From Sipunculus nudus (Eukaryota > Annelida > Sipuncula > Golfingiida > Sipunculidae), in the NCBI GenBank assembly GCA_026874595.1, contig CM049314.1, forward strand, positions 12,330,729 through 12,394,728: 64,000 bases of DNA, read 5' to 3'. This document shows, one piece after another, positions 3,349 to 59,530 of the stretch. Numbering within the stretch: position 1 is the stretch's first letter; each line of letters starts with the position of its first letter. Under the pieces are notes generated by a model. The model saw only the letters and a list, made by a program, of their open reading frames with translations, was not told where the DNA came from and did no database searches. The position numbers and the translations under genes are program-made.

Positions 3349-3641
3349 CTCTATTATAATTATAATTGTATTAAAGAGACCTTCCTAACACCGTTTTTTT
3401 TTTTGGCAAAAAAAAAGTATTACCACAATGGGAAGTTGAATAAGTAAGTAGAATATTCAAAATATGTCTCCCATTGCTTATCACAAAATAAAAAATAAGC
3501 GTCTTTAACTCTGTCGCCTGAAATTCACAATTCACAATATGTATTATATAACCACTTGTCATAGAGTAGGTCACAACTTGTGACATACCAAGGCCTTTTC
3601 TTAGACACTTTTAAGATATCTACAACTGGTGTCATGTTACA
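2401..3641 (+). repeat. Unit 0: diverged copy of the array spacer
   Basis: Landmarks occur in the same order as in unit A. 'actctcgccgaatcttat' at about 2,521 matches about 11,544. The 'aataattaccattta' region near 3,105 matches about 14,237. 'tttgtgacataccaa' near 3,570 matches about 14,652. The match is interrupted by many substitutions and indels, so this is an older tier of the tandem array. No exons of the secreted-protein gene are visible in it. Confidence 0.55.
3309..3346. repeat. (TA)n microsatellite
   Basis: Nearly uninterrupted alternating TA. It is one of several such tracts in the window. Confidence 0.95.
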
Positions 3642-5929
3642 CTGTTTTATCCTCTGTTTTATATGATTTGAACATGTATAAAATGAAAAGACAACAATTT
3701 AAAAACCTATGTGATAATAAAAAGAAGTCTAAACAACAGTCTACAATGATACACTTATCAAATATTAAGAATATAAATGATTTATGGGTCTGTATTAAAA
3801 AGTACCTTAAGAAAGAGAATAGTGTTAATCATATTCCAGCAAACGAAGGGTTTAATTACTTTAGAGCTTTGCTGAATGAAAATAAAAACAATGTTAAAGA
3901 AGAATTTTGCCTTATGGCTAACATATACTTCGAAAATAATTATAACAGTGGGTCTGTATGTGGGTCCCTTAACAATGAAATAACGGTATTTGAAATAAGA
4001 CATGCAGTAAATCAGATGCAAAGTGGTAAATCTGCTGGACCAGATGGGCTACAAGTTGATATTATTAAGTCACTTTTAGAAATTATTTTGCCCTTATTAC
4101 ATACTTTGTTTAACAGTGTTTTCAATAAGGGATCATTCCCTGGTGAATGGAGTAAGGCAATCATATTTCCTCTACACAAGAAAGGTCCTTTAAATGATCC
4201 TAGTAATTATAGAGGGATATCATTATTGAATGTTACAGGAAAAATATTCACTAAAGTTTTGAATAATAGGCTCTCTCAGTATGTGCAGGAAATGAATATT
4301 TTATCCGAGTCTCAAGGTGGTTATAGAAAGGGGTATTCTACCATTGACCAAGCATATGTCTTGCATGCTTTAGTTCAGAAATACTTAGTTAAAAGAAAAG
4401 GAAGGTTTTATTGTTTATATATTGATTTTGCAAAAGCTTTTGACTGTGTGCAACATAATTTATTGTGGTATGTCTTATTGAAACAGGGTATAAATGGTAA
4501 AATATTAAATGTTATAAAATCAATGTATTCAAAAATGCAGTCTTGTATATTAACTGACGGTGGTCTTACCGATTATTTCTCATGCTCATTAGGTACCAGA
4601 CAGGGTTGCATGGTAAGTCCATTATTATTTTCCTTATTTATAAATGAGTATTGTAATATGTTACATGGAAGTGATTGTAAAGGGATATATGTTAATGATA
4701 ATCTTTCCAATGTAATGACTTTATTATTTGCAGATGATATGGTTAATTGTGCAGATACTGTTGGTAGACTTCAGCAACAGATTAATCTCTTGCACAATTT
4801 TTGTGAAAAATATGGTTTTAAAATTAACACAGATAAAACTAAAATTATGGTTTTTAGAAAAGGTGGTCCTTTACGAAAAGTTGAAAGATGGTATTTAAAT
4901 GGTAAACAGTTAGAAGTGGTTCCATACTATAAATATCTTGGTATTACTTTCTCAACAAAATTATCTTGGTCAAAAACACAACAACAGCAAGCTTTGCAAG
5001 CAAACAAAGCTGTATGTATGATTAAAAAATTCAGTAAAAAGTGTAAATATGTTAGTACTAAACATCTCTTTTATCTTTTTGATCAAATGGTAGTGCCAGT
5101 ATTAATATATGGATGCGAATTATGGGGCTTTAAGAAATCAGAAACTATAGAGAGAGTGCAGTACACATTTTGTAAATATATTTTAAATGTAGGCCAGAAT
5201 ACTCCAAATGCAGCAGCATTAGGGGATTGTGGCAGATTTCCTTTGTTTGTAACTTGTTTATTACGTTGTGTTAAGTTTTGGGTTAAATTACTTTATATGC
5301 CAGAACATAGGTATCAGAAACAAGTGTACAGTTTGTTGAGGAATTTAGACAACAGTGGTAAATCAAATTGGGTATCTCAAGTAAGAACATTGCTATTTGA
5401 GTCTGGTTTTGGATATGTTTGGATGGCACAGTATGTTGGAGATGCGAACAAATTTTTGAAAGAATTTGAAATTAAAATAAGAGACATGGCTATTCAAAAC
5501 TGGCATAGTGATATTGAGTTGTGTAGTAAATTATATTATTATGGTGCTTTCAAATCTATGCTAACTCTTGAAAAGTATTTATACTGTATTCCTAATAAGA
5601 AACATCGCATAGCACTTGCTAAACTTCGATGCTCCAATCATGAATTGGCTATAGAAATAGGTCGTCAAAATGATATATCTCGTGAAGAGAGGATCTGTAA
5701 ATATTGTTTACATCATGGATACAATATTGTTGAGGATGAAGCTCACTTTATGCAAGAATGTATTCTATATAATGATTTGAGGATAAAATACTTTAGACAA
5801 GACTTACATTACCCAAGTGAACAAAACTTTATTAAATTATTCAATTTAGACAATCATATTGAGATAATGAATGTTGCTGCATATGTATATTATTCCTTTT
5901 TGAGGAGACGAAGAATAATAGATGGTTAA
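3629..5929 (+). CDS. LINE ORF2 C-terminal part: reverse transcriptase
   Basis: The open frame is 766 codons, but its first nine codons lie in flanking host DNA and the target duplication; element sequence starts at 3656 and its first internal Met is at 3674. The order is a linker, then RT fingers with 'GKSAGPDGLQ', a 'YRGISLLN' motif, 'YIDFAKAFDCV' (motif A), 'GTRQGCMVSPLLFSLFIN' (motif B) and 'LLFADD' at residues 366-371 (motif C, the catalytic Asp pair), followed by thumb and a C-terminal 'CKYC...HFMQEC' zinc-knuckle-like motif. This layout is typical of the Jockey/CR1/I group of LINEs; I cannot fix the clade by eye. The product would copy its RNA at nicked chromosomal DNA, but this copy has no endonuclease and could not be autonomous. 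No stops or frameshifts interrupt the RT. Confidence 0.93.
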   Translation: MSCYTVLSSVLYDLNMYKMKRQQFKNLCDNKKKSKQQSTMIHLSNIKNINDLWVCIKKYLKKENSVNHIPANEGFNYFRALLNENKNNVKEEFCLMANIYFENNYNSGSVCGSLNNEITVFEIRHAVNQMQSGKSAGPDGLQVDIIKSLLEIILPLLHTLFNSVFNKGSFPGEWSKAIIFPLHKKGPLNDPSNYRGISLLNVTGKIFTKVLNNRLSQYVQEMNILSESQGGYRKGYSTIDQAYVLHALVQKYLVKRKGRFYCLYIDFAKAFDCVQHNLLWYVLLKQGINGKILNVIKSMYSKMQSCILTDGGLTDYFSCSLGTRQGCMVSPLLFSLFINEYCNMLHGSDCKGIYVNDNLSNVMTLLFADDMVNCADTVGRLQQQINLLHNFCEKYGFKINTDKTKIMVFRKGGPLRKVERWYLNGKQLEVVPYYKYLGITFSTKLSWSKTQQQQALQANKAVCMIKKFSKKCKYVSTKHLFYLFDQMVVPVLIYGCELWGFKKSETIERVQYTFCKYILNVGQNTPNAAALGDCGRFPLFVTCLLRCVKFWVKLLYMPEHRYQKQVYSLLRNLDNSGKSNWVSQVRTLLFESGFGYVWMAQYVGDANKFLKEFEIKIRDMAIQNWHSDIELCSKLYYYGAFKSMLTLEKYLYCIPNKKHRIALAKLRCSNHELAIEIGRQNDISREERICKYCLHHGYNIVEDEAHFMQECILYNDLRIKYFRQDLHYPSEQNFIKLFNLDNHIEIMNVAAYVYYSFLRRRRIIDG
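3642..3655 (+). repeat. Left target-site duplication of the LINE
   Basis: 'ctgttttatcctct' is repeated exactly at 6147-6160, immediately outside the LINE tail. Confidence 0.85.
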
Positions 5930-16400: not shown

Positions 16401-18157
16401 AATTCATGTAACTAAATATAACTAGGTCAGCTTATGTTAATGAAGCCGGAACTAGTTATGAGAAAGGTAAACGGTGGGACTGCATAAAACACGTTCAGGC
16501 GTGGAATAGCATCAACAATATAATTTCTCATTGTTCAAATTAATATTATAGCTATACATCACCATACATTATAATTGCGGAAAGATTGTCAAACATGATG
16601 TATATATGATATTTTGCCATTAACTGTAATAAAAATTATTCAACATTATACTTACTAACTAAATAAACATTCTTTGAAACTTTGCCATCAAAGGTTAAAA
16701 GGGTTTTAATTACCTGTCAAAACAAAAACTGGAACAACAACCAATGTAATAATACAGCTACTATGATTTACTTAATCAGTCAAGTTTTCTCAGTCATTAA
16801 AACATCAAAGGGTCTAATCATAACTTTTTTTTTCTTTATTTAAATGGGCATAATTTCAGGTTTATCTACAACTATTTGTGCTTTTTATTTAGAAAAATCG
16901 TAAAAAAAAAATTATGATAGACAACATATATATGTATTAAAAATGTATTAAAAATTACTAGATGGAAGGGGTATACACATAAAAGTGGTTCAATTGCAGT
17001 GAACCACTTTTCTGTGTATACCCTTTCCATCTATAAAACAATGAACCAGCATGGCTATTCATACATCTATATATATTAAAAATTACTGTTATTACCACAT
17101 TGGTTTCGAGCCTTTACATAATGCTCTACCCTGAGATATGAGATATTGCTTTATTGGCCTCTAGACATTTAAAGTAAATTTTAATACTGTTTATAGTTAT
17201 TTAATTGATGATTTTTTTTTCTTTTCTTTATGATTGATACTGTGTCCATTCATGACTTAATCGTTTAAGGATACGATGCTGTTCTGTATTTTTAAATATG
17301 CTTGGTCAAATCATTCCTATACACACACTATTTCTAAAATGTAGCCATATCGTAATGTTTTGTAGTCCTTATTATTGTTTACATAGTTTTAATACTATTA
17401 ATATAATTTTATTTACAAATCCAGGATTCCTTGCATGCCTTTTTTTTCTTGTATAAATCTTGATCATATGGACCACAATGGAAATAACTTTATATTTTAA
17501 ATCTTTTTAGTGTTATCCTTGGTTATTTTATGATGAATGTTCTTTAATATGCATGTATCTGACTAAACATTCATAAAATCAATCATTAAATCTTGGTTAA
17601 ATTACCTGTAAATAACTAAACTGCAATATATACCAAATATGTTGCGAAATTTGAATGATAAAATATTGCCTAAAACTGGGAATATGCCCCCCAGCCCGAC
17701 CTCAACTAATAAATAAGATATTCGAAATCGATCATAAAAAAATTCAAAACTTATCACTGTTGCACCATAGTTGATTTGTTATCATTTTCAAGACAAATAT
17801 ATTGTATCAGTTTTCTCAATAAAATGATGATCCTCTCAAGCCAGTTCTATCTACAAAATTATACGGAGAGACATGGTAACCTATTAGTCTTCATCAATTT
17901 CTCTTTCATTACATTTCGGGCAGATAACGGTAATAGTGATATCACGAACAAGCAAAGTTTACATCTGGAGATTATGTCAAGGTCAATGTTTTGCCAGTTT
18001 TGTATGGTCAGGTTCTGCAAATATTTTATATCAGTTTTCTTGCTTGTTACATTGTGTTCACGCTTTGCTTTGGAAAAATGATGTTAACTAGTCAAATGTT
18101 ATATTCATGGCCATATATTCAAATATTCTTGGTTGGCTAGTATTTGAGTGTGCTAAG
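13440..18157 (+). repeat. Block P, unit A
   Basis: Spacer shared with 23.9-28.7, 40.7-47.3 and 51.2-57.4 kb. Landmarks are 'cctgtgtataaacaggg' (about 13,453), a poly-C run near 13,711, 'cgctgatgacagcgccctc' (about 14,953) and 'cagtatacagcgccact' (about 16,088). Unlike the other copies it lacks both the 0.8-kb dispersed repeat (site near 14,550-14,735) and the TIR transposon (empty site near 15,752-15,775). No conserved ORF is seen. Confidence 0.7.
16959..17033. repeat. 75-bp near-perfect hairpin
   Basis: Two 34-nt arms ('tagatggaaggggtatacac' and onward at 16959-16992; the complement at 17000-17033) pair at 32 of 34 positions around a 7-nt loop 'attgcag'. It is absent from the equivalent place in units C and D. 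The direct repeat 'tattaaaaattact' lies outside both arms (about 16,947 and 17,077). It could be a small foldback element or a hairpin RNA source. Confidence 0.75.

Positions 18158-18227
<70 letters not shown>
18158..18227. repeat. (TA)n microsatellite, left border of the Penelope-like element
   Basis: Preceded by 'ggttggctagtatttgagtg', which in unit C (about 47,170) continues instead into unit spacer. The tract marks a break in unit order. Confidence 0.9.
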
Positions 18228-18230
<3 letters not shown>

Positions 18231-18302
18231 CACTTGCTGGCAACGGCTTTAAAGTGGGCGGGAAAATACACCAACATCTCAGACCTGAACCTCTAAGTTA
18301 TC

Positions 18303-18990
18303 ATGCACTCTCAAAATTCCCTCTTATTTGATAACGGCACCCCCTAGCAAAACACTGAGAAAGGGCCCAGCACGTTTGATGTAACCGTGGGGAGTTACGA
18401 CGGGGTCGAAGTGTGTGGATTGGTCGGTTTATACGCCCTGAGCACCATACGAAAAGAGTTCCCCGATATGAACGTCGGTTTGTACAGAGACGATGGACTA
18501 GCAGCCCTGAAATCAGTATCAGAACCCGAAGCAGACAGGATCAGGAAAAAAAACTCGCTGAAATCTTCCCCACCATGGACCTGGAACTCAAAGTTGAAAC
18601 AAACTTGACATCAGTCAACTACCTAGATGTCTCACTGGACCTCCAATCTGGAAATTTCAGCCCGGACAGGAATCCAAACGATCAACCAATCGTTATAAAT
18701 ATCAAATCAGACCACCCCCAGCTATTATCGAAACATCCCTTCGGCTGTCAACAAGCGCCTATCAGAACTTTCTCAAGATGAAAACACCTTCAGAAAAACA
18801 TAAAAAAAATACGAACAAGCACTCAACAATAGCGGATACAAGCAAAGACTTAGTTACATCGCCTCACAGGAAGCTGCCGGAAAACGCCGCAAAAGCTGAA
18901 CCAGAAATATCATTTGGTTTAACCCTCCGTACAGTGCAATCGTGAAAACGAATATCGGCAAATTTTTCCTTTAACTTGTTGCCAAACATT
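18303..18990 (+). pseudogene. Penelope-like reverse transcriptase, C-terminal part
   Basis: Recognisable pieces spread over shifted frames: 'MHSQNSLLFDNGTP', TAG at 18345-18347, 'FDVTVGSYDGVEVCGLVG', then 'NVGLYRDDGLAAL' with the RT motif C Asp pair. The frame then shifts at an A8 run near 18,545 into 'TSVNYLDVSLDLQSG' and again later into 'NKRLSELSQDENTF', 'GYKQRLSYI' and 'FNPPYS'. This succession is characteristic of Penelope-like RTs. At least two stops and two frameshifts make it non-functional. Confidence 0.82.
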
Positions 18991-19011
18991 TTCTAAAACA
19001 CAAATCACGCA

Positions 19012-19470
19012 TTGCACAAATTATTCAACAAAAACAATCTGAAAATTAGCTATAGCTGCATGAAGAACGTTAGATCAAAAATACAGAGCCACAATACAAG
19101 ATTACTGTCTGAAAGGCAACAAAGAGAACCCACACAACAAAGGCCATGCAACTGCCGTAGCAAATCTGGCTGTCCTCTCAATGGGATGTGCCTAACCCTG
19201 TCCATTGTCTACCAAGCCATCGTATTCAGTAACGGTTCAGTTAACACATACATCGGCATGACCGGAGGCCCCTTTAAACAAAGGTATTACAACCACAAGA
19301 AATCATTTACGCACAGGACCCATTCAAACGAAACCGAACTTGCCAAACCCGTTTGGACCCTGAAAGACAAGCAACAAAGCTTCACTATCACCTGATCTAT
19401 AATCCAGCAGTCAAACACATCTATGACCCCTTCACGCCAGTGCAATTTGTGTTTGGCTGAGAAACAAGAA
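19012..19470 (+). pseudogene. Penelope-like GIY-YIG endonuclease domain
   Basis: A 127-codon open frame starting 'HKLFNKNNLKISYSCM' continues to 'CNCRSKSGCPLNGMC' (Cys cluster) and 'TYIGMTGGPFKQRYYNHK', where the YIG half-motif and the conserved Arg are visible, then 'NETELAK' with the conserved Glu. The first half-motif reads 'IVY' rather than GIY. The frame is lost near 19,395, but 'QCNLCLAEKQEII' is readable in another frame at about 19,430-19,470, the second zinc motif of these proteins. The domain would nick target DNA to prime reverse transcription. Confidence 0.82.
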
Positions 19471-19662
19471 ATTATAAGATAGAATGTATTTAAAGGTTTT
19501 TTGTTATGTTTGTGAATAGGGGTTACTGGATGCCTGGCTTATTGTACTGTATTAGGAATATTATGAAGCGCTCGAGGATTCAAATACCTGCCTCACCGAA
19601 CCTAGTAACCCGAGATTAATCCTACCTGTTCTGACAAATTTCAACCAGATATCTGATCACTC

Positions 19663-19730
19663 CAGTTTGTACCTGAAGAGTGAGCCGGCTTGAATGCTGC
19701 TCTCACGAAACAGATCTGTCGCACAAACTG
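19663..19730 (+). ncRNA. Type I hammerhead ribozyme
   Basis: All core pieces are in the right order. Stem I 5' strand 'cagtttgt' is at 19663-19670. Core 'ctgaaga' is at 19673-19679 (CUGANGA; the N position is free). Stem II 'gtgag' (19680-19684) pairs with 'ctcac' (19702-19706). 'gaaa' is at 19707-19710. A very short stem III 'acag/ctgt' is at 19710-19719. The cleavage base C is at 19720 in a GUC context. The stem I 3' strand 'acaaactg' is at 19723-19730. A minimal stem III is a known feature of hammerheads in Penelope-like elements. Predicted cleavage is after 19720. Confidence 0.82.
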
Positions 19731-19753
19731 ATGATGTCAAACTAACCGTACTT

Positions 19754-19756
<3 letters not shown>

Positions 19757-19797
<41 letters not shown>
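19757..19797. repeat. (TA)n microsatellite, right border of the Penelope-like element
   Basis: Followed by sequence homologous to gene C intron 2 just after its own (TA)n tract (about 35,896 onward). Confidence 0.9.
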
Positions 19798-35819: not shown

Positions 35820-35897
<78 letters not shown>

Positions 35898-40739: not shown

Positions 40740-43700
40740 TTATACACTAATTTTCTTCCTGTGTATAAACAGGACGATTCCTATTAAAAACATCAATATA
40801 CATACAATATTAATTTTGAGAATAATTTTAATTTCATTTTCAAGTCTGTTTGATTCATTTATGTTCTCAGTATATTAAATTTTGTTTAGCATGCATGACA
40901 TATGATTAACCACATTATCTGTGGTTTTACTCACCCTTCAACAATTTATTGTTTGAGTAATGGAATTTGCACTCGTTTTATTATTATAATTACTATTATT
41001 AAAAAGATAGTTAATCCCCCCCCCACCCCGGCATGTATCGCTTTAACCTATATGGAATCAACACGTTTTACGTTGTCATTGTAATTCTTTGTTAAAACTG
41101 AACCCTAGGTGATAAACAAATATTAAGATAACTTTTGCATTGTTGTTTTTCAATGTGTTTTTCTGGCAGATTTGACAATTTTAACAAACCGCTGAGGTGT
41201 TATAGCGAAGGGGTTAGCTGCTTCGTTCCCTTTAACCGGCCGTATCGAGCATAAACAGGCGCATATTATTTAAGACTTTTCAATTTTATATTGAAAACAC
41301 CTCTGTAGCCTCCATATATACACTTTAAACCCAAGGGTGCGTTCTTAATAAAATTAAAACTGTTTGAATCTGGTGCGATGTACGGCTAAAGTGCCGGTTC
41401 CGCTTTCTTGGTTTAATGTCTAACCTGGCAACTGTATCCAAGATGGCGGAGCTAACTCGTCCGTGCCGTCACGTTAATTGCCCACATATGAGAGTAAGTG
41501 TAACAGATGTTATAGTATGTTTACACATTAGTGTTAGAAACCTAGAAAAAATAATTACCTTTTAATTAAAAAAGCTTATGTTATCTACAGTCAACTGTTT
41601 GTTAATGCCAATAAACATCCGGTTATTCCGCGGTAATTATATATGTTACTGTGCATTTATTGATTGATACTTAAGCTGCGCTTAGATACATTCACAGGTA
41701 TATATTTCTCTATTATGATAAGAGAACATCACAACACCCTCAGACTTATTTTCTAAATATGTACCACGACTTGAAGTTTATTCAATTATAAAGGTAAGCC
41801 CATTATGAAAATGCTTATTTAATTACTCATCATCAATCCTGTGACCTTGGTCTAATCTGCTGAAATCTAAATTTGTTGTTTTGAGTTATTGCATATTTTA
41901 CCCCTAATGTTTTTTGATGACCCATAGGGGAGAAACATATCTGTTTTGCACTGCAAAAGCCATTAACACATTTTTATATATTTTTTTTTGAAAACTACAA
42001 ATAAAGAAGTTGTTCATTAGCAGGGCAAAAATCATGAGTGTTGGACCTAGAATCTTCTCACTTGAAATCCTAAGAGTTCCGTGAAAAATATCCTTAGAAA
42101 CTTGATATTAGGTCATGGTCAACTTTATTTTGCAAATAAGGGAAAAAAACATGATTTTTCAGCACCAAGTGAATCAGAAAGGGCACAAATTGTATCCATT
42201 TGGCCTAAAATCCTCATACATGACTTTCAGGGAGGTCCCTAAAAATCTCCTTAGAAACCTGAGATGTCACTATTTTCTGCAAGCTGTGTGAAAGAACTTG
42301 ATTTTAACACTAAATTAGTCAGACGATATAGATGGCAGTAGCTGCATGTAGATTAAGGTTACTGTAACGTATATCTAAAGGCTATTAGCAAAAGGGATGA
42401 ATTTTTACTCTGGAAGTCTTTTTGCCCTTTGTTCAAAGCTTCTTGAATTCAGCTGAGCGTCATGGCCCATGGGCCTCTTGTTTTTATTGTGGTATTGTAC
42501 ATTAAAGTGAGGTAGTATAACCAGCTGATTGTTTCTATAACTTGTTGTATCTTAATATGCCGTATCATGTTTCGATGTCAGCGTGGGAAGGTAGTGTGAT
42601 AATGTCAATGAAAGCATACAGACATAATTATTAGTTTCTAAAATTTAAATGTTATAGTAATTTATGACAAAATACGGAAGGGTGTAACCATAAAACACCG
42701 CTGATGACAGCGCCCCCTGCCGGGAGAACGGCCATTTTTTTCCTTGGTTGGAGTTTTGCTTAGAACCATTGAGAGTCTCTAAAGAAAGTATAGCACCACC
42801 ATATATAAATTAATGCACCCTTAGCCAGGAAATATCCTAAATACCAGACAATGGATTATGCACCCACAACAGACCCTGCATACTCGTGGCATGTCAAACT
42901 TGTGGCATAACCCTAATGCCTTCAGTTCAGACTTCATTAAAGCAACTTAAATCAGAGGCAGCTTGATATCTACTACCAGGAGTGGAATTCATCAGTTGAT
43001 AACTCTTCTTCTTGCTCTAACTACATATTTTTAAATGCAAATTTTGTTTTGAAAACTACCTTACCAGTCTACCTCCATGTCTGGCGATCAGCCTGTGTAA
43101 ACTCAAAACCAGAAACTGTAAATTTCAAGTTGCTAACTGGCATAAGGAAAATAAAAACACGAATTCTAAAAGTTGCAAGTAGTGCACCAAAAAAGATATT
43201 ATGATGAATTCCAATACCTGTTCAACTGTCAACATTTTACACAAGCTAGACAAAAAATCTTACCTAAAGAAATGTATGCTCATCCATATGCATTCAAAAC
43301 GAAGTAACTTATGAAAAGCGACAGCAGACTGTTAATTTAACTAAGTAAACTGAGTTAGATAATAATTGGGAAACTTTCACACATTGTTTATTCAGTTATT
43401 TTTCTTCTTCTGTATGATTTATCTTTGTAATTATGATTTACGTTGTTTGCACAGGTTAAATGTTTTCTCTAGTCTTTACCTTGACACCACTAGGTTGACC
43501 CTGCATTATATCACTTGTTCAGATACAGTATTTCCTTGAACAGACACTGCGACGTAAATAGTCGCCGGGGCAAAATGATGTCACAGAAGAATAAACGCCG
43601 GTCTTAAATAGACGCCGGTCTTGTTCAGAGGCCGGATGTCAGAGTAGTTTCCATGTTTGCCGCCAGATGTGTTTCTCACAACTATTATTGGTGCATTTAC

Positions 43701-46700
43701 CGGTCAAATTAACCGGAGATTGTTGTATGAATTTCCGTTTGTGTTTGTGTTGATAATATGTTTAGCTTCGCTATAAATCTTTCTTTTTATTGTTACGTGC
43801 ATGCCTGTTCCATAAGGGGCACCAAATATTCCCGATTCGCCATTACGATTAAAGCCGATTACCAATCCTAATAAACGCTACACATATACGTCTGTATTGA
43901 GAAGGTAACACTATCACTTCTGACAAGATAGGTTAAATAGTACCGCTTGACACAAATTAAGCGGTACAACGTGGTACGGTGAGAGTCTACGTACCTCATG
44001 GTTGGTTGAACAGGACTGTTCAAATCCGTTTTGACACATATTTCTCGTGATGCATGGAGTTAAAAGGGGGTAGGAAATGTTATGAAAATGAATCACGCCG
44101 TGCCGTTATAAGTACCAACCCCCCGTATTTCGATGGAACCAATGTTACATTTAGCTCATGGTGCACAGTTAATAGAAGAGCCACCGCGTGGTCAGAGGGA
44201 AATAGGGTTACCAACTCCACATGGTGCAAAATAAATGGAACAACCACATAAAACGCCGGCGTACCTGGTCTCGAGAGGCCCGCGCGGACATATATTCCTG
44301 TGGACAAATGCAATCTCTCTCTCTGATTCCCCGTAAGTTCTTATTTTGGTGCGTGATTTTGCATGGAGATTGCGTGTGTCCCATATCCTTATGATATCTA
44401 AGGAAATTTTGTAAATGTATACGTGTACCGGTTGTTTTACGGTATGTTGTTAATTGTATCCCCAAATCATATAGTGACCGGTGGATTTATTGTTTCGATG
44501 TGTTCTGTGTTTGTTTTGTCTGACGAGCCTGATAATGTGTTTTTTTTTATAAACGCCGGGTCAAAGCAGGGTCTGCAAAAATAAACACCCAGGCGTCTGT
44601 TCAAGAAAATACGTTAATAACAATTGATCCGACAGTAGATATATTTTTGTAAATAGAATACCTGAAGGCATTTGGTGCTTATCAAGTTACCTTTCCCATA
44701 GTAAAACCTTGTATCATATTCCTAAATTTCTGTACCTACACCTTCACGTGATTGTCCATGTACTTAGTTTTCTAGATCAATATTAATCATTCACTTCTAG
44801 GCATAGTAATAGACACTAGCAAAACCAATATACAGTTCTTCACACTCATGATTTATCATATTCCTGTAGCTGAATATTTACTTGTATTTATGTATTCTGT
44901 AATTATAACACTGCACTTATCTACATCCTAGAACCACTTCTGCACTCTATATTATCACAGTCTCAGTATAAGTCAGTATACAGCGCCACATATTGTACAA
45001 TACAAACACGAAATGCTTATAATCCCACCATTCCCCAATACGGGACGCTTTTGTGAATTAATTAATGTTCAGTTTTTTGTTGGGGGGGCAGGTTATCGGC
45101 CAATGCTTTTGTGGAGGGGTGTACAAGCCCGTGACAGCAGGTGATATTTATGACAAATGTATGAAGGCCTCCCACAGAGTCCCTTGACAGAGCTTTGATA
45201 ACTTGTATTAATTTCTTAGCAATATTTTCGCAGGGGAAATAAGTATCGGTTTTTCTCATAAAAGTATTGCGTCATTTCTACGTCATGTAACATAATTTAA
45301 CTAGGTCAGATTATGTTAATGAACCCGGAACCAGTTTAGAGAAAAGTCAGAGGCGTGACTGCCTAAAACGCGTGCACGCAGGGAATAGCATCAATAATAT
45401 AAATCTCTCACTGTTCATAGGAATATGACATTTGTACATCACTAACATGGCGAAATTATAAAAAATGATATATACATGTATATGATTTTTTCCATTAACG
45501 TTTATAAAATTATTCCACATTATACTTACTAACTAAATAAACATTCTTTGAAACTTTGCTATGAAAGGTTTACAGGGTTTTAATTACCTGTCAAAACAAA
45601 AACTGGAACAACAACCAATGTAATAATACAGCTACTATGATTTACTCAATCAGTAAAGTTTGCTTAGTCATTAAAACATCAAAGGATCTAATCATAACTT
45701 TTTTTCTTTATTTAAAGAGCATAATTTCAGGTATATCTACTACTATTTGCGCTTTTTATCCAGACAAATAGTAAAATTATTATATGATAGGCAACATAAA
45801 TTTGTAACTTATATTACAATCGATATAAAATGGTGTATATAGATATCTATATATGTATATTTTATATAATTACATTCTTTGGCCATTGTTATACAATTTA
45901 AGGGTTAATAATAATGGTGCTTACGTCTAGTCACATTTTAAAATTACTCCGTGACATACCACCTTGGTTTCTAGTCATTTAAATAATGAAATACCCTGAG
46001 ATATGCCTCTTTGGTTTCTAGTCATTTAAATTATGCTACACTCTGTGATATGCCACATTGGTTTCTGGTCGTTTAAATTATAATATACCCTTAATATGCT
46101 ACATTGGCCTCTATACATTTAAAGTTTACTTCTATTTATAATGATTTTTTTCTTTTACTTTATTATTAATACTGTGTCTAGTCATGACTTAGTCCTTTAT
46201 GTATTCCATGGTGTTCTGTATTTTAAAATATGCTTATTATTGTATAATCAATCAATACACACACTGTTTCTAAATATGTAGCAATACTGCAGAGTTTTGT
46301 AGTCCTTTGTTATTTTTTACATCTGTTATTAATACTATTGATTGTAAATTACTACATTTAATTTAATTTATAAATCCTGTATTCCTTGCATGCCCTTCTC
46401 TTTTGATCACAAACAACACTATGGAAATAAGTTGATATTATTAATATTTTTAGTGTTATCCTTGGTTATGTTAAGATACTTTATTTTATTATAAGTGTTC
46501 TTTTATATATGCATATATCTGACTATACCTAAATAAAATCAGTCATTACATGTTGGTAAAATTACCTGTCAATAGCTGAACTGTAATTTATTTATTCATT
46601 AAAATATTGCGAAATTTGAATAATACAATATTGCCTTAAACTAGGATAGTGATAAGTTTCAACACTTATAATCATTTTAGTTTATGTTGCCATTTGAGAA

Positions 46701-47389
46701 CAACTAACTGAAGCACCTGTGTATATTTTAAATAATACGCCCCCCCCCCCCTCCAAAATTAACTGATACATAAGATATTCCAAATGGATTATGAAAACGA
46801 TATCAAAACTTATCCCTGTTGAACCATAGTTGATTTGTAATCTTTTTTAAGACAAATGTATAAAATTGTATCAGTTTTCTCAATAATATGATGATCATTT
46901 CAAGCAAGCTCTATCTACACAATACATTGTTACCTGTTAGTCTTCATCCATTTCTCTGTCATTACATTTAAGGAGCAGATAACCAACAAGCAAGGTTTTA
47001 ACCTGGAATTATGGTCAGTGTCGATGATCTGTCAGTTTCAAATGGTCAAGTTCTACAAATATTTTATATCAGTATTATTGCTTGTTACATTGTGTACACA
47101 ATTTGCTTAGGATTAATGGTGTTTTACAAGTCAAATTTTATATCCAAGGCCATATTTTCAAATATTCTTGGTTGGCTAGTATTTTAGTGCGATAAGTATA
47201 TATATTTGTACATTGTCTCAGTAATTGGTTTGCCACAATATATTTCTCTTTTGTGCTTATTTTGTTTTTTATAAAAATAATGGTAGTCTGTATAAATTTA
47301 TTGTATTACAGATTTATGTATATATTGTTTTGTTGTAAAAATAAATTCTTTGCAACCAATATGTGCCTTCAGTTCACTTCATCTGAATG
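40740..47389 (+). repeat. Block P, unit C (long form)
   Basis: Contains the dispersed repeat (41,815-42,480, with about 150 bp of its left part deleted), the TIR transposon (43,526-44,616) and the right part (45,330-47,389) that unit B has lost. The right part also corresponds to 16.5-18.1 kb in unit A. A poly-C run lies near 46,740. No conserved gene. Confidence 0.75.
43526..44616. mobile_element. 1.09-kb TIR transposon, unit C
   Basis: Same element and insertion site as 26,882-27,975, with the same ends and flanks. The internal 65-codon frame is at 44054-44251. Confidence 0.8.
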
Positions 47390-47909
47390 TCGGTCCGTCC
47401 TTCCGTCCGTCTTACTGTCGTCCTTACATTTTCGCGCGATATCTCAACAAGACTATGCGTGATCTTTCTCAAAATCACAGGGGTTATTATATAGGCTACA
47501 GATCTGTTGAATTACAGACCTGTCGAAATTCCAATATGACCACCAGAGCCCAATCAGTGATTTTATTTCGCGCCCAATATCTCATCAGGAACATTGTTGT
47601 TCTTTCACGAATTCACAGGGATGATTGGTACCTATGAAGTCTCCAGACTTGTTGAATTACAGGACCCGTCATTATTCAAATATGGCCGCCGGAGCACAAT
47701 CGGTGATTTTCTTTTGCAATCGATATCTCAACAAGAACAAGCTTTGTACTTTTTTTTTAATTTAAAGGGATGCTTGGCACCTATGTAGGCTCCAGACCTG
47801 TTGAATTACAGACCTGTCGGAATTCCAATTTGGCCGCCAGAGCACAATTGGTAATTTTTTTTTTCACGTGATATCTCAACAAGAACAAGCATGATCTTTC
47901 TCATATTTA
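47390..47909 (+). repeat. ~147-bp minisatellite, unit C
   Basis: 'caatcagtga', 'caatcggtga' and 'caattggtaa' at about 47,551, 47,698 and 47,845 mark a 147-bp period. Each unit holds 'ccaatatggccgccagagca' and 'atatctcaacaagaacaagc' variants. The array starts after a 'cggtccgtccttccgtccgt' stretch. Confidence 0.75.
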
Positions 47910-48119
47910 CCTCTCGTCTGGTCATTTGGATTCTGCGATATGTGCGTGCACATGCGCGTAGATCAATCATGCGTTCGTTTTTTGAAGGAGAAAGACATCT
48001 TTGACTTTTACCAGTTTTATCTATAGATTATCACCGTAATTTGCAGTCATCGACTCCCTATAATTTCCTGAACTGAAAGGTTATGCCTGGGAGCAAACAA
48101 TCAACGACATGTAGACCAT

Positions 48120-49545
48120 GTCGGATAGGAATTCTGTCGATTTGGTCGGGGCAGTTCTTTAGGAAGCCCGTAAGAGCAAGCATGGGGCTTCAGCAAGTAA
48201 TTCTGGCCCAAATGCTGCTTGCAATACACCGTTTACTGATATAATTAAATCTGATCAACAGAAAAGGTCTTCGGCAAACAGCTCGAGCTCGGCGTCTCTG
48301 AATAGCCCGACAGACGGCGCTGGGGACGGGGAATATCCTCCGGCTCGGGGGGGGGGCATAAGTCATTCGACAAAACGGTGGGAAACCAGGTCACCCACCA
48401 AGGAACAGGACAGAACTGAATGACGTGACCGAGATCTGATCTCGCGCAAGAGGTCATATGACATAAACAAAGCCCATAAACAAAACAGCCCGGGACCGTC
48501 CAAACATCAAGAACGGTCACGCCCGCCTAGCAGCAACAGCAACATTGAAAAATCAAGAGACTTTGACGAAATTAAAATTGCTTAAAATCACAAATCGGCT
48601 CAATTAGTGCTATGCTGAAAAACTTGCGCAAGTTGAAGGTTGAAAGAGGCTTATGATGACAGCCGACGCGAGGCACCTGTTAGTGAAAATGACAAGCCCC
48701 ACTCGCTGACGGAGATGATAGTGACACATGGAAAGAGGAACCCCCTGCAAAGCGAAACAGATTATTAGAGATGGATAATCAGCACAGCGCACGTGATAAA
48801 GAGCAGGAATTTCAAGGGCTGGGTTGCTGGAATGAACTTAATGCAGCGATAAGCAATGAAGAGGCCTGATATTCAAAATAAAATGGTTGAACTGGTAAAT
48901 ACAGTCTTGCATACAGGCATGCCTAAGAAATTGCGGGGTGAAAAAGCCAACGAGTACAATCCGCCGGGTTACTGTGGCTATATGACCCAAATCAACTTTA
49001 ATCAGAAGCCGAGGGGAACATGTAGACCTGTCACAAGGTAAAATAACAAATCCTTGCAAAACTGGCAAAGCTTATTGCTGAGTGGCAGATGCGTGAACTT
49101 GACACATTGAATGGATGGGGCTATGCCTGGCCCAGTGGACATGCTAACAAAGCTAAGTGATGGTATCACCCTTCTAGCTGGTTTGGGTTTTGAAATATCC
49201 ATGCACACGAGAGATCTCATAAAACCAGACATAAATGAGCAATAGAAAGCTCTCGCGTCGCCTATGAACCTAGCTACCAAGCTGCTATTCGTTGACAACT
49301 TGATCAGAATGACAAGGACATTGAGAAGCCCATGAAGATTGCCAACAAGACCAAAATAAATCAACCAATTTCCAAGGTCACAATTACAGGCAGAAACAAA
49401 AAGGAACAAGAGGCAGCTACGGCTTCAAAGGTAGCAGGCTTTTTTAATAGGAAAAGCCACAGGGTAAACCAAGCAAACAAGAGACCAAAAACAATCGACT
49501 GTTGTGTGACTAGGGATCAGGCCCAGAAGAAGGCCAGACATTAGA
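48120..49545 (+). pseudogene. DIRS Gag-like region, unit C
   Basis: 'KRPDIQNKMVELVNTVLHTG' at 48,856-48,920 lies within a 61-codon frame, and 'KLSDGITLLAGLG' near 49,150. Multiple stops and frameshifts parallel those of the unit-B copy. Confidence 0.6.
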
Positions 49546-51158: not shown

Positions 51159-54100
51159 AATCGCTGAGGTGTCATAGCGAAGGGGTTAGCTGCTTCGTTC
51201 CCTTTAACCGGCCGTATCGAGCATAACAGGCGCATATTAAGACTTCTCAATTTTATATTGAAAACACCTCTGTAGCCTCCATATATACACTTTAAATCCA
51301 AGGGTGCGTTCTTAATAAAATTAAAACTGTTTGAATCTGGTGCGATGTACCGCTGAAGTGCCGGTTCCGCTTTCTTGGTTTAACGTCCAACCTGGCAACT
51401 GTATCTAAGGTGGCGGAACTAACTCGTCCGTGCCGTCACGTCAATTGCCCACATATGAGAGTAGGTGTAACAGATGTTATAATATGTTTACACATTAGTG
51501 TTAGAAACCTAGAAAAAATAATTACTATTTAATTTAAAAAGCTTATGTTATCTACAGTCAATTGTTTGTTAATGCAAATAAACATCCAGTTATTCCGCGG
51601 TAATTATATATGTTACTGTGCATTTTTCGATTGGTACTTAAGCTGCGCTTAGATACATTTACAGGTATCTTCTCTGGTAAGTAAAAAGTTTTCTATTTTT
51701 TTATATATTTCTCTATTATGATAAGAAAACATCACAACACCCTCAGACTTATTGTCTTAATCTGTATCATGACTTGACGTTTGTTCAATTATAAAGGTAA
51801 GCCCATAATGAAAATGCTTATTTCTTCACTCATCATCAATCCTGTGACCTTGACCTTGATCATCAAGGTCAAATTTATCCAATATAGGCTTATTGTGACC
51901 CAAATAACTTTGTAATTAATGCAGATTTTCTCTTTAAATCTGATACTTCAATTCTTTCTGCCAAAATATCATCAGAGTTTGAAAAGCGGTGACCTTGACC
52001 TTCAAGGTCTAATCTGCTGAATTCTAGATTTATTGTTTTGAGATATTGCATATTTTACCCCTACTGTTTTGGGATGACCCATAGGGGAGACATATATCTA
52101 TTTTGCACTGCAAAAGCCATTTATATGTTTTTATATATATTTTTTTTAAATCTACAAATAAAGTTGTTCATTAGCAGGACACAAATCGTGAGTGTTGGAC
52201 CTAGAATCTTCTCACTTGAAATCCTAAGAGTTCCATATTAGGTCATGGTCCACTATATTTTGCAAATTAGGGGAGAAAACATGATTTTTTAGCACCAAGT
52301 GAATCAGAAGGGGCACAAATTGTATCCATTTGGCCTAAAATCCTCATACATGACTTTCAGGGAGGTCCCTAAAAATTTCCTTGGAAACCTGAAATGTCAC
52401 TCTGACCCATTTTCTGCAAGCTGTGTGAAAGAACTTGATTTTAACACTAAATTAGTCAGAAAGACATCGATGGTAGTAGCTGCATGTAGATTAGGGTCAC
52501 TGTAACCTATATCTAAGGGCTATTTGCATGAATTTTTACTCTGGGAGTCTTTTGCCCATTGTTCAAGGCTTCTTGATATCAGCTGAGCGTCAGGGCCCAT
52601 GGGCCACTTATTTTTATTGTGGTATTGTACATTAAAGTAAGGATAGTATAACCAGATGATTGTTTCTATAACTTGTTGTATATTAATATGCCGTATCATG
52701 TTTCGATGTCAGCGTGGGAAGGTAGTGTGTTAGTGTCAATGAAACCATACAGACATAATTATTAGTTTCTAAAATTTAATTGTTATAGTATTTCATGACA
52801 AAATACGGAAGGGTGTAACCGTAAAACACCGCTGATGACAGCGCCCTCTGCCGGGAGAACAGTCATTTTCTCCTTGGTTTGAGTTTGGCTTAGAACCATT
52901 GAGAGTCTCGAAAGAAAGTATAGCAACACCATATATAAATTAATGCACCCTTAGCCAGGAAATATCCGAAATACCAGACAATGAATTATGCAACCACAAC
53001 AGACCCTGCATACTCGTGGCATGTCAAACTTGTGGCATAACCCCAATGCCTTCAGTTCAGACTGGATTAAAGCAACTTAAATCAGAGGCAGCTTGATATC
53101 TACTACCAGGAGTGAAATTCAACAGTTGATAACTCTTCTTCTTGCTCTAACTACATCTTTTTAAATGCAAATTTTGTTTTGAAAACTACCTTACCAGCAT
53201 ACCTCCATGTCTGGCGATCAGCCCGTGTGAACTCAAAACCAGAAACTGTAAATTGCCAGTTGCTAACTGGCATAAGGAAAATAAAAACACGAATTCTAAA
53301 AGTTGCAAGTAGTGCACCAAAAAAGATATTATGATGAATTCCAATACCTGTTTAACTGCCAACATTTTACACAAGCTAAACAAATCTTACCTAAAGAAAT
53401 GTATGCTCATCCATATGCATTCAAAATGAAGTAACCTATGAAAAGCGACAGCAGACTGTTAATTTTACTCAGTAAACTGAATTAGATAATAATTGGGAAA
53501 CTTTCACACATTGTTTATTCAGTTATTTTTCTTCTTCTGTATAATTTATCTTTGTAATTATGATTTACGTTGTTTGCACATGTTAAATGTATTCTCTAGT
53601 CTCTAACCTTTACCTTGACACCACTAGGTCGACCCTGTATTATATCACTTGTTCAGATACAGTATTTCCTTGAACAGACAATGCGACGTAAATAGTCGCC
53701 GGCGCAAAATGATGTCACAGAAGAATAAACGCCGGTCTTAAATAGACGCCGGTCTTGTTCAGAGGCCGGATGTCAGAGTAGTTTCCATGTTTGCCACCAG
53801 ATGTCTTTTCTCGCAACTGTAATTAGTGCATTTACCGGTCAAATTAACCGGAGATTGTTGTATGAATTTCCGTTTGTGTTTGTGTTGATAATATGTTTAG
53901 CTTCGCTATAAATCTTTCTTTTTATCCTTACGGGCATGCCTGTTCCATAAGGGGCACCAAATATTCCCGATTCCCCATTACGATCAAAGCCGATTACCAA
54001 TCCTGATAAACGCCACACATATACGTCCGTAGTGAGAAGGTAACACTATCACTTCTGACAAGATAGGTAAAACAGTACCGCTTGACACAAATTAAGCGGT

Positions 54101-57100
54101 ACAACGTGGTACGGTGAGAGTCTACGTACCTCAAGGTTGGTTGAACAGGACTGTTCAAATCCGTTTTGACACATATTTCTTGTGATGCATGGAGTTAAAA
54201 GGGGGTAGGAAATGTCATGAAAATGAATCACGCCGTGCCGTTATAAGTACCAACCCCCCGTATTTCGATGGAACCATTGTTACATTTAGCTCATGGTGCA
54301 CAGTTAATAGAAGAGCCAACGCGTGGTCAGAGGGAAATAGGGTTACCAACTCCACATGGTGCAAAATAAATGGAACAGCCACATAAAACGCCGGCGTACC
54401 TGGTCTCGAGAGGCCCGCGCGGACATATATTCCTGTGGACAAATGCAATCTCTCTCTCTGATTCCCCGTAAGTTCTTATTTTGGTGCGTGATTTTGCATG
54501 GAGATTGCGTGTGTCCCATATCCTTATGATATCTAAGGAAATTTTGTAAATGTATACATGTACCGGTTGTTTTACGGTATGTTGTTAATTGTATCCCCAA
54601 TTAATATAGTGACCGGTGGATTTATTGTTTCGATGTGTTCTGTGTATAAGTTTTGTCTGACGAGCCTGATAATGTGTTTTTATAAACGCCGGGTCAAAGC
54701 AGGGTCTGCAAAAATAAACACCAAGGCGTCTGTTCAAGAAAATACGTTAATAACAATTGATCCGACAGTAGATATATTTTTGTAAATAGAATACCTGAAG
54801 GCATTTGGTGCTTATCAAGTTACCTTTCCCCTAGTAAAACCTTGTATCATATTCCTAAATTTCTGTACCTACACCTTCACGTGATTGTCCATGTACTTAG
54901 TTTTCTAGATCAATACTAATCATTCACTTCTAGGCATAGTAATAGACACTAGCAAAACCAATAAACAGTTCTTCACACTCATGATTTATCATATTCCTGT
55001 AGCTGAATATTTACTTGTATGTATGTATTCTGTAATTATAACACTGCAATTATCTACATCCTAGAACCACTTCTGCACTCTATATTATCACAGTCTCAGT
55101 ATAAGTCAGTATACAGCGCCACATATTGTACAATACAAACACGGAATGCTTATAATCCCACCATTCCCCAATACGGGACGCTTTTGTGAATAAATTAATG
55201 GTCAGGGTTTTTTTTTGGGGGGGGGCAGGTTATCGGCCAATGCTTTTGTGGAGGGGGGTAAAAGCCCGTGACAGCAGGTAATATGAATGCTTCCCATAGA
55301 GTCCCTTGACAGAGCTTTGATATCTTGTATTAATTTCATAGTAATATTTTCGTAGGGGAAATTAGTATCGGTTTTTGTAATAAAAGTATTGCGTCATTTC
55401 TACGTCATGTAACATAATTTAACTAGGTCAGATTATGTTAATGAAGCCGGAACCAGTCTAGAGAAAAGTCAGAGGCGTGACTGCCTAAAACGCGTGCACG
55501 CGGGGAATAGCATCAATAATATAAATCTCTCACTGTTCATAGGTATATGACATTTGTACATCACCAACATGGCGAAATTATAAAAAAATATATATACATG
55601 TATATCATTTTTTCCAATAACGTTTATAAAATTATTCCACATTATATTTACTAACTAAATAATCATTCTTTGACATATTTCTTTTTAAGGTGTACAGGGC
55701 ATTAATTAGCTTGTCAAAACAAAATCTGGAACAACAACTAATGTTACTTTGATTTATTTATCAGTCAAGTTTGCCCATTCAATAAAAACATCAAAGGATC
55801 TAATCATTTATGTTGTCTCTTTATTTAAAGAGCATAATTTCAGGTATATCTACTACTATTTGTGCTTTTTATCCAGAACAAATAGTAAAATTATTTAATG
55901 ATAGGCAACATATATTTGTTACTTATATTACAATCAATATAAAATTGTGTATATAGATATCTATATATGTATATTATATAAAATTACATTCTTTGGCCAT
56001 TGTTATACAATTTAAGGGTTAATAATAATGGTGCTTACGTCTAGTCACATTTAAAAATTACTCCGTGACATACCACCTTGGTTTTAGTCATTTAAATAAT
56101 GAAATACTCTGAGATATGCCATTTTGGTTTCTAGTCATTTAAATTATGCTACACTCTGTGATATGCCACTTTGGTTTCTAGTCATTTAAATTATAATATA
56201 CCCTATAATATGCTACATAGGCCTCTTGACATTTAAAGTATACTTCTATTTATAATTATTTAATTGATAATTTTTTTTTCTTCTCTTTATGATTAATACT
56301 GTGTCTAGTCATGACTTAGTCGTTTATGTATTCCATGGTGTTCTGTATTTTAAAATATGCTTGGTATAATCAATCCTATACAAACACTTTTTCTAAATTT
56401 GTAGCAATACTGCAGAGTTTTGTAGTCCTTTTTTATTTTCTACATTTTTTAATACTGTTGATTGTAAATTACTACATATAATTTAATTTATAAATCCGGT
56501 ATTCCTTGCATGCCCTTCTCTTTTGATCACAAGCAACACTATGGAAATAAGTTGATATTATTAATATTTTTAGTGTTATCCTTGGTTATGTTAAGATACT
56601 TTATTTTATTATGAGTGTTGTTTTATATGCATGTATCTGACTATACCTAAATAAAATCAGTCATTACATGTTGGTAAAATTACCTGTCAATAGCTGAACT
56701 GTAATTTATTTATTCATAAGAATATTGCGAAATTTGAATAATACAATATTGCCTTAAACTAGGATAGTGATAAGTTTCAACACTTATAATAATTTTAGTT
56801 TATGTTGCCATTCGAGAACAACTAACTTAAGCACCTGTGTTAATTTTAATAATACGCCTCCCCCCCCCCCCCAACCTCCAAAATTAACTGATAAATAAGA
56901 TATTCCAAATGGATTATGAAAACGATATCAAAAACTTATCCCTGTTGAACCATAGTTTATTTGTAATCTTTTTTAAGACAAATGTATAAAATTGTATCAG
57001 TTTTCTCAATAATACGATGATCATTTCAAGCAAGTTCTATCTACACAATACATTGTTACCTGTTAGTCTTCATCCATTTCTCTGTCATTACATTTAAGGA

Positions 57101-57509
57101 GCAGATAACCAACAAGCAAGGTTTTAACCTGGGATTATGGTCAAGGTCTATGATTCGTAAGTTTCAAATGGTCAAGTTCTACAAATATTTTATATCAGTA
57201 TTATTGCTTGTTACATTGTGTACACAATTTGCTTTGGAGTAATGGTGTTTTACAATTCAAATTTTATATTCGAGGCCATATTTTCAAATATTCTTGGTTG
57301 GCAAGTATTTTAGTGCGATAAGTATATATATATTTGTATATGTCTCAGTAATTGGTTTGCCACAATATATTTCTCTTTTGTGCTTATTTTGTTTTTTATA
57401 ACAATAATGGAAGTCTGTATATATTTATTGTATTACAGATTTATGTATATATTGTTTTGTTGTAAAAATACATTCTTTGCAACCAATATGTGCCTTCAGT
57501 TCACTTCAT
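51154..57509 (+). repeat. Block P, unit D
   Basis: Starts mid-block at the breakpoint. It includes the full dispersed repeat (51,820-52,610), the TIR transposon (53,660-54,749) and the right part (55,450-57,509). In the dispersed repeat it has the ~150 bp that unit C lost, and it also has the 2.5 kb that unit B lost. Confidence 0.75.
53660..54749. mobile_element. 1.09-kb TIR transposon, unit D
   Basis: Same ends and site as in units B and C. The internal 65-codon frame is at 54189-54386 with both Trp-Cys repeats. Confidence 0.8.
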
Positions 57510-57996
57510 CTGAATGTCGGTCTGCCTTCCGTCCGTCTTACTTTCGTCCTTACATTTGCGCGCGATATCTCAACAAGACCTTGCATGATCTTTCTCAAAA
57601 TCACAGGGGTGATTATATAGGCTACAGATCTGTTAAATTACAGACCTGTCGAAATTCCAATATGGCCACCAGAGCCCAATATCTCATCAAGAACATTCTT
57701 GTTCTTTCACGAATTAACAGGGATGATTGGTGACTTGTTGAATTACAGGACCCGTCATTATTCAAATATGGCCGCCAGAGCACAATCGGTGATTTTATTT
57801 TGCAATCGATATCTCAACAAGAACAAGCTTTATACTATTTTTTTTAATCTAAAGGGATCATTGGCAACTATGTAGGCTCCAGACCTGTTGAATTACAGAC
57901 CTGTCGGAATTCCAATTTGGCCGCCAGAGCACAATCGGTAATTTTTTTTTTCACGTGATATCTCAACAAGAACGAGCATGATCTTTCTCATATTTA
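57510..57996 (+). repeat. ~147-bp minisatellite, unit D
   Basis: Same array as in unit C, with small deletions in the first full units ('agagcccaatatctcatcaa' near 57,670). Confidence 0.7.
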
Positions 57997-58219
57997 CCTC
58001 TCGTCTGGTCATTTGGATTCTGCGATATGTGCGTGCACATGCGCGTAGATCAATCATGCGTTCGCTTTTTGAAGGAGAAAGACATCTTTGACTTTTACAA
58101 GTTTTATCTATAGATTATCACCGTAATTTGCAGTCATCGACTCCCTATAATTTCCTGAACTGAAAGGTTATGCCTGGGAGCAAACAATCAACGACATGTA
58201 GGATAGGAATTCTGTCGAT

Positions 58220-59530
58220 TTGGTCGGGGCAGTTCTGGAGGAAGCCCGTAAGAGCAAGCATGGGGCTTCAGCAAGTAATGATGGCCTAAATGCTGCTTGC
58301 AATACACCGTTTACTGATATAGTTCAATCTGATCAACAGAAAAGGTCATCGGCAAACAGCTCGAGCTTGGCGTCTCTGAATAGCCCGACAGACGGCGCTG
58401 GGGACGAAGGATATCCTCCGGCTCACGGGGGGCATAAGTCATTCGACAAAACGGCGGGAAACCATGTAACCCACCAAGGAACAGGACAGAGTCGAATGAC
58501 GTGACCGAGATCTGATCTCGCGTAAGAGGTCATATGACATAAACAAAGATGGCCGCGCCCATATGAACAGCCCGGGATCGTCCAAACATCAAAAACGGTC
58601 ACGCCCGCCTAGCAGCAACAGCAACATTGACAAATCAAGAGACTTTGACGAAATTAAAATTGCTTAAAATCACAAATAGGCTCAATCAGTGCTATGCTGA
58701 AAAACTTGCGCAAGTTGAAGGCTGAAAGAGGCTTATGATGACAGCCGACGCGAGGCACGTGTTAGTGAAGATGAAAAGCCCCACTCTCTGACGGAAATGA
58801 TAGTGACACATGGAAAGAGGAACCCCTGCAAAGCGAAACAGATTATTAGAGATGGATAATCAGCACAGCGCACGTGATAAAGAGCAGGAATTTCAAGGGC
58901 TGGATTGCTGGAATGAACTTAATGCAGCGATAAGCAATGAAGAGGCCTGATATTCAAAATAAAATGGTTGAACTGGTAAATACAGTCTTGCATACAGGCA
59001 TGCCTAAGAAATTGCTAGATGAAAAAGCCAACGAGTACAATCCGACGGGTTACTGTGGCTATATGACCCAAATCAACTTTAATCAGAAGCCGTGGGGAGC
59101 ATGTAGACCTGTCACAAGGTAAAATGACAAATCCTTGCATAACTGGCAAAGCTTATTGCTAAGTGGCAGATGCGTGAACTTGACACATTGAATGGATGGG
59201 GCTATGCCTAGCCCAGTGGACATGCTAACAAAGCTAAGTGATGGTATTACCCTTCTAGCTGGTTTGGGTTTTGAAATAACCATGCACACGAGAGACCTCA
59301 TAAAATGACAAGGACATTGAGGAGCCCATGAAGATTGCCAACAAGACCAAAAAGATCAATCAATTTCCAAGGTCACAATTACAGGCAGAAACAAAAAGGG
59401 ACAAGAGGCAGCTACGGCTTCAAAGGTAGCAGGCTTTTTTATAGGAAAAGCCACAGGGTAAACCAAGCAAACAAGAGACAAAAAAAAAAATCGACTGTTG
59501 TGTGACCAGGGTTCAGGCCAAGAAGAAGGC
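58220..59530 (+). pseudogene. DIRS Gag-like region, unit D
   Basis: A 94-codon frame (58220-58504) rich in Ser and Asn, then 'KRPDIQNKMVELVNTVLHTG' and 'SPVDMLTKLSDGITLLAGLG'. A deletion near 59,304 removes about 100 bp present in the other copies. Confidence 0.6.

Follow-up and report, generated by a model that had tools for sequence, protein, structure and literature searches.

A type I hammerhead ribozyme and its probable Penelope-like family in Sipunculus nudus

We analyzed a 64,000-nucleotide stretch of the Sipunculus nudus genome (hereafter the window) that carries a type I hammerhead ribozyme on its forward strand at 19663-19730. Very probably, this motif is the hammerhead of a dispersed Penelope-like family, family C, where it lies in the 3′ (pseudo-LTR-type) region of the element, and the window copy is a relic within a composite of families A and C. 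Type I hammerheads borne by Penelope elements are an already known class, and the window ribozyme is a real, structurally complete member of it. Direct reading of the motif, a descriptor search, covariation across families and genome matches identify the ribozyme.

Anatomy and detection of the hammerhead motif

Reading the strand directly, we find every conserved position of the type I hammerhead: the core invariants, the A15.1-U16.1 pair and an H at position 17, scored on a list that we take to be the invariant positions of this ribozyme. The sequence-only reading, an earlier note made from the letters of the window, had claimed a hammerhead core and three stems in type I order at this place, and this is borne out. 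Stem I is open-ended. The earlier note had counted eight of eight pairs in it, and 19663-19670 do all pair with 19723-19730, but the count omitted an internal A19671 × C19722 mismatch and the C19672-G19721 pair that follows it, so that the two strands span 19663-19672 and 19721-19730. The core CUGAAGA (C3-U4-G5-A6-A7-G8-A9) occupies 19673-19679. Stem II (span 19680-19706) has the five of five pairs claimed for it, with GUGAG at 19680-19684 opposite CUCAC at 19702-19706, and its arm contains an inner 4-bp helix (19686-19689 with 19696-19699). The second core strand, G12A13A14, lies at 19707-19709, with A15.1 at 19710.

Stem-loop III (19710-19719) is a perfect palindrome, ACAGATCTGT, which is kept in 35 of the 40 family C copies aligned below. 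It was rightly called very short; its stem is ACA/UGU, 3 bp closed by a GAUC tetraloop, or alternatively 4 bp with a 2-nt loop. U16.1 is 19719 and G1.1 is 19721. H17 is C19720, after which cleavage is predicted; the 40 copies, window included, have A (22) or C (18) here. On inspection, stem I near the core shows no internal loop beyond the single mismatch that could serve a loop I-loop II contact.

Fold prediction for the lone strand, with tertiary energy excluded, gives a minimum of -19.9 kcal/mol in which the core CUG pairs with the CAG of stem III, and the hammerhead fold has -16.7 kcal/mol. The best predicted fold with the core held single-stranded has -18.1 kcal/mol, and the pairs of stem III reach a probability of 0.03-0.04 in the lone-strand prediction. 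Self-cleavage of the window ribozyme is possible, and we expect it to be slow or assisted. By analogy, the palindromic stem III would permit a form made of two ribozymes with a 10-bp helix III. A two-ribozyme form with shared helix III is described for newt ribozymes in the excerpted text of PMC6155905.

To gauge chance, we used a strict descriptor (the core, stem I of at least 6 bp with at most one mismatch, stem II of at least 4 and stem III of at least 3). Its single match on both strands of the 64-kb window is 19663-19730, and it matched in none of 150 first-order shuffles. With a looser descriptor (5/3/2), 4 of 150 shuffled windows gave matches (0.027 per window).

Position 17 of a hammerhead follows the NUH rule, being H and never G. 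Searching the genome with the 3′ half of the motif and N at position 17, we obtained 171 exact matches, against 0 for the reversed control. A hand count of position 17 among the 100 listed of these 171 finds A in 68, C in 30, T in 2 and G in none.

The Rfam models behaved differently. The whole 64 kb gave no hammerhead match at the gathering threshold and no hammerhead family at E ≤ 3, and the 401 bases around the motif gave none at E ≤ 10. The sequence-only reading had named a missing covariance match above threshold as part of what would refute the ribozyme, and this is what Rfam returned for the window motif. The miss says little, because related loci are missed as well: two family B and three family C loci had no hammerhead match at E ≤ 5, and six family A/D loci yielded only two sub-threshold matches, both in family A (L074, RF00163 at 25.6 bits, E 0.021, gathering 34; L098, RF00008 at 20.7 bits, E 3.1, gathering 48.5). 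The gathering score is a detection threshold, not a structural feature, and a search of the Rfam catalog can overlook Penelope hammerheads of the kind found in this genome. A custom covariance model built from six family C sequences, the window among them, and one family B sequence scores the window copy at 92 bits, a circular value because the window sequence is part of the model. In family A, where the score is non-circular, seven rows have 13.5-24 bits (E 0.0003-0.39).

Might the motif be a chance resemblance with no ribozyme history? The missing Rfam match and the other fold favored by the lone strand would fit this. We consider it extremely unlikely in view of the empty shuffles under the strict descriptor, the absence of G at position 17 among the listed matches, the RF00163 match in a sister family, sub-threshold as it is, and the covariation across families described below.

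Family C copies and the composite element in the window

Searching the 1.43-Gb assembly with 19600-19757, we obtained 42 matches (40 scored of 561 candidates). The alignment holds 40 full-length copies, window included, from all 42 places; these are the copies most similar to the window, with 26 distinct sequences and four identical copies from one host array. The 39 other sampled copies are 92-95% identical to 19579-19757. A full consensus ribozyme is present in 27 of these 39, and the core is intact in 34 of the 40 (window included), so an intact ribozyme is the norm in family C. The earlier suggestion that the integrity of the window ribozyme marks a surviving function is not supported against this background. 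We likewise rejected integrity as proof of selection. All 8-9 differences between the window and each of L003, L004, L006 and L007 fall outside the ribozyme (Fisher 0.011 each), and the comparisons with L005 and L008 have one difference inside it (Fisher 0.139 and 0.044), but these tests are interdependent and possibly reflect subfamily differences.

Across the 40 copies, minor alleles amount to 1.7% in the ribozyme (1.0% without position 17), 5.1% in 19600-19648, 1.8% in 19649-19662, 0.6% in 19731-19751 and 15% in the last six bases. The quiet block is therefore wider than the ribozyme, as variation is also low in 19649-19662 and 19731-19751, and it may reflect protein binding or initiation of reverse transcription. 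We also considered the ATG at 19694, in loop II, as the start of the element ORF, a position in keeping with pseudo-LTR geometry as published. In most of the 40 copies this site is CTTTAG or CTTTAA, which ends the frame after 20 codons, and this candidate was discarded.

Upstream of the ribozyme, three-frame translation shows a 5′-truncated, frame-broken Penelope-like element of family A on the forward strand (18228-19478). Its remnants are a reverse transcriptase (RT) palm with YRDDGLA at about 18375-18554 and a GIY-YIG-type endonuclease that is open over 18997-19395 and then meets an in-frame TGA. We take these motifs to be those of an RT and an endonuclease; the domain names come from the motifs, because Pfam searches gave no match for the remnants and a PDB search found nothing. 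A search of a viral collection found nothing either. The telomerase-like RT and GIY-YIG endonuclease of a Penelope-like element are thus present as remnants only, in a broken frame. Against L001, which is deposited as part of a bacterial MAG but has Penelope frames on both strands of the contig, the RT is 59% identical over 58 amino acid residues and the endonuclease 47%. The family A part of the window carries 62 substitutions in 958 positions (6.5%) relative to the family A majority; a count of insertion columns was set aside as an artifact of the alignment edges.

Similarity to the family A copies stops at 19478 and family C sequence starts at 19484, leaving the junction at 19479-19483. This led us to reject the window element as a simple 5′-truncated element with its own 3′ end. 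First comes segment X of the family C 3′ region (19484-19580, reverse strand), inverted relative to the ribozyme, and then the family C 3′ region of pseudo-LTR type with ribozyme and tail (19579-19757, forward strand). At E ≤ 1e-4, none of the 29 loci L073-L101, 26 of them family A, contains family C segments. Of five family A copies read, four have a frame that, counted from shortly before the equivalent of 19478, remains open over 30 codons or more, with a C-terminus resembling the one in L001. The window has therefore lost the C-terminal end of family A. Segment X has the opposite orientation in 36 of the 37 sampled placements that carry it, and four placements are without it. The one exception, L018, has the window-like order, located on an inverted arm. 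Because Penelope elements are known to carry inverted pseudo-LTRs (PMC3846280, excerpted text), an inverted spacer between pseudo-LTRs is a plausible isomer.

The sequence-only reading had placed the ribozyme at the end of a Penelope-like element. It does lie at an element 3′ end beside coding remains, but the end is that of family C and not of the adjacent family A frame; a ribozyme found intact beside a ruined frame may belong to another element. The relic would be a family C 3′ end joined, inside a TA microsatellite, to a truncated family A element. The simplest origins would be a single insertion in which the template switched from C RNA to A RNA, or a nested insertion with deletion, and both fit. 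The apparent A/C chimera is known from this one assembly.

A (TA)35 microsatellite (18158-18227) forms the left edge of the element. The tail (19731-19757, forward strand) leads to its 3′ end, 37 nt from the cut, where a (TA)20 microsatellite (19758-19797) follows. Host segments duplicated at a distance of about 10 kb make up much of the window. The duplicates of the left flank (46734-47196 and 56886-57322) have a short TA tract only and no element. The duplicate of the right flank has (TA)n at 35823-35865, also with no element, so the right TA tract is probably older than the insertion. A host block present in other units appears to be missing between the flanks of the ribozyme unit.

Further features of the window were observed. 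Direct host duplications, for example 41842-49224 with 51996-59305 (93% identical), are probably tandem gene copies. A near-perfect long hairpin at 16956-17035, with a sub-threshold mir-590 match (38.9 bits, gathering 65), is probably a small inverted-repeat element. At 3605-5929 lies a 774-aa stop-to-stop frame with RVT_1 (E 3e-36), apparently an open LINE-type frame.

Related families, covariation and element 3′ ends

Family A is represented by 26 loci of the same genome (L073-L098) and has its own 43-nt hammerhead. Using a tolerant pattern, we find a hammerhead-like core in 12 of the 26, located 100-131 nt after the endonuclease match; four of these 12 (L082, L083, L090 and L093) have a changed core or stem base. 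Decayed or cut remnants are left in L077, L078, L085, L092, L094 and L095, and neither the tolerant pattern nor alignment detected a hammerhead remnant in L086 and L089. Six loci do not extend to the ribozyme site in one alignment, and L098, which is among these, has a match to the custom model. L001 shows a hammerhead core with stem II at the same place (CTGACGA-GTGC..GCAC-GAAA), ended by the contig end.

With the L001 endonuclease as protein query, 150 of 2482 candidates were scored, and these revealed a second family, B, which has many 713-aa open frames. A tandem array of this family on C17:42718942-42850968, partly contained in L071, holds 46 endonuclease matches spaced 2919-2933 bp apart. 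In the family B ribozyme (L044:2688-2735) the stems are different, stem II has a U.U at its base, and H17 is U. An exact 23-nt pattern of its 3′ part occurs at 31 sites in L041-L071, the preceding 45 nt being identical in 31 of 31, and the 28-nt sequence at the cut has 1261 exact matches genome-wide. A further hammerhead variant sits at the equivalent place in family D (L099). As a separate observation, two families adjoin one microsatellite in L033: a ribozyme of family B type (L033:1051-1098, 51.2 bits), reversed in orientation, and a family C copy are separated by a TA tract.

For covariation, seven sequences from families A (four), B, C and D were aligned with MAFFT, and 92.1% of the alignment cells are paired. 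Seven pairs changed on both sides, a number reached in 1 of 500 shuffles; this count takes the first pair only of stem III, uses a structure drawn from the same sequences and covers about four lineages. The covariation score is 0.421 against 0.157 for shuffled alignments (0 of 500), and slid partners reach at most 0.091. Compensatory stem changes are also seen in two further comparisons, one of them on a model-fitted alignment.

A further alternative assigns the ribozyme to a non-autonomous retrozyme, made of short tandem repeats with no coding frame, rather than to a Penelope element. Upstream of the ribozyme, the similarity among many of the sampled family C copies is confined to a short stretch, an endonuclease frame was found in L010 only among five copies inspected, and helix III is closed as in retrozymes (PMC7229834, excerpted text). 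Against this, about ten family C copies match one another for at least 600 nt upstream, which in L010 is where the endonuclease frame lies, and the same 3′ geometry recurs in families A and B, both of which have RT-EN frames. Nor do the sampled copies (40 of 561 candidates) contain tandem units of 150-450 bp; the sole regular array has a spacing of 6.4 kb. We regard a retrozyme as improbable and assign the ribozyme to the Penelope-like family C.

The distance from the cut to the 3′ end is 37 nt in family C, 33 in family B and 31 in family A. A script placed the 3′ ends of the 40 family C copies (window included) at (TA)n in 22, at a longer tail in 15 and at other sequence in three; one of these three, L036, resembles a long tail too. 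In family B, an exact 3′ end followed by TA repeats occurs 932 times (control 0). The AT-rich target and the alternative 3′ ends (tail) that mark Penelope elements are thus both found here. The geometry of families A, B and C agrees with the account in PMC11167929 of internal RT initiation, an AT-rich target and alternative tail ends. A GCTC..GAGC hairpin just 3′ of the RT-start site (L071, L075, L079, L009 and L018) is predicted in A, B and one of two C copies; as modeled, this weak feature is a possible binding site for the element protein.

This genome therefore offers a natural test set, with at least three Penelope families whose covarying hammerheads lie at a similar distance from the 3′ end. 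Its TA microsatellite targets mark insertion ends closely, and family B adds many long frames in tandem arrays.

Possible roles of the ribozyme and comparison with known systems

We infer that the element 3′ end would be the start of reverse transcription. In tandem or read-through transcripts, the ribozyme would then cut after position 17, either in cis or in a dimer joined by the palindromic stem III, and yield unit-length RNAs with a 5′-OH end. In A, B and C this presumed start borders TA repeats, and the cut would precede it by 31-37 nt. A single ribozyme in a truncated copy cannot release such a unit, so the window copy would at most nick host read-through RNA at 19720. According to PMC11167929, the ribozyme studied there showed no cleavage when the element protein was absent, and ribozyme mutants insert normally in vitro. 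PMC7761336, as excerpted, treats the reason why Penelope elements carry hammerheads as an open question.

The ribozyme-cleaved linear RNA might itself be the insertion template, and the first base of full-length copies would then be the one at the hammerhead cut. Such cleavage would divide the tandem family B arrays, with their repeat of about 2.92 kb, into units, and 5′-end processing has been proposed for other element-borne ribozymes (PMC7761336, in excerpt). Yet none of the 16 family B 5′ regions begins at the cut, and insertions starting there were accordingly rejected: two regions begin at the RT-start site, two at other TA-rich sites and four at inverted junctions (two of them, L108 and L114, being two sides of one), and the remaining eight extend past the fetched stretch (six), are masked (one) or have no match (one). 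The normal insertion of ribozyme mutants in vitro also speaks against it. Because no region starts at the cut, linear unit templates do not explain the role of the ribozyme in this small test, and we hold them to be quite unlikely.

Penelope elements here could also replicate through RNA circles. Array transcripts would be cut, a host ligase would close the units, and reverse transcription, beginning 31-37 nt downstream of the cut, would run one or several laps. If so, one lap would give a single copy with its 5′ and 3′ ends at the same site, and several laps would give the 2.92-kb arrays. The two of 16 family B regions with 5′ ends at the RT start, together with nine exact genome-wide junctions between a TA run and the RT-start site (control 0), are a possible signature of circles. 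TATA microhomology with the TA target explains shared 5′ and 3′ ends equally well so far. We think that circles are unlikely.

The preferred reading, a family C hammerhead in a Penelope 3′ region, can be set beside published systems. With the known Penelope type I hammerheads (Cervera & De la Pena 2014 and Lunse 2017, as cited in later papers; PAc of Anolis, PMC11167929), the window ribozyme shares the type I order and the universal core. It also shares the place in the pseudo-LTR region of GIY-YIG elements, with the tail just beyond and an AT-rich target, and family B shares the tandem organization. The published Penelope hammerheads are described as minimal and usually without helix III (PMC7761336, PMC6155905), whereas in A, B and C helix III is closed by 3 bp, and in C it is palindromic. 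In PAc of Anolis the cut lies 26 bp inside the ORF (PMC11167929), whereas the family B core lies 215 nt upstream of the first ORF ATG (L071).

Metazoan non-LTR retrozymes share the type I hammerhead with a short closed helix III, and the U.U at the base of helix II in HHR_Amex2 (PMC7229834) occurs in family B as well. Retrozymes are tandem repeats of 150-450 bp without a frame; the window ribozyme, in contrast, is part of RT-EN element families. Penelope and Poseidon (PMC3846280, PMC11167929) share with the families described here the RT and GIY-YIG domains, inverted pseudo-LTR arrangements, two alternative 3′ ends, 5′ truncation and an AT-rich target. Unlike in these elements, a TA microsatellite is here the commonest 3′ neighbor, and a few bases are common to the RNA end and the target.
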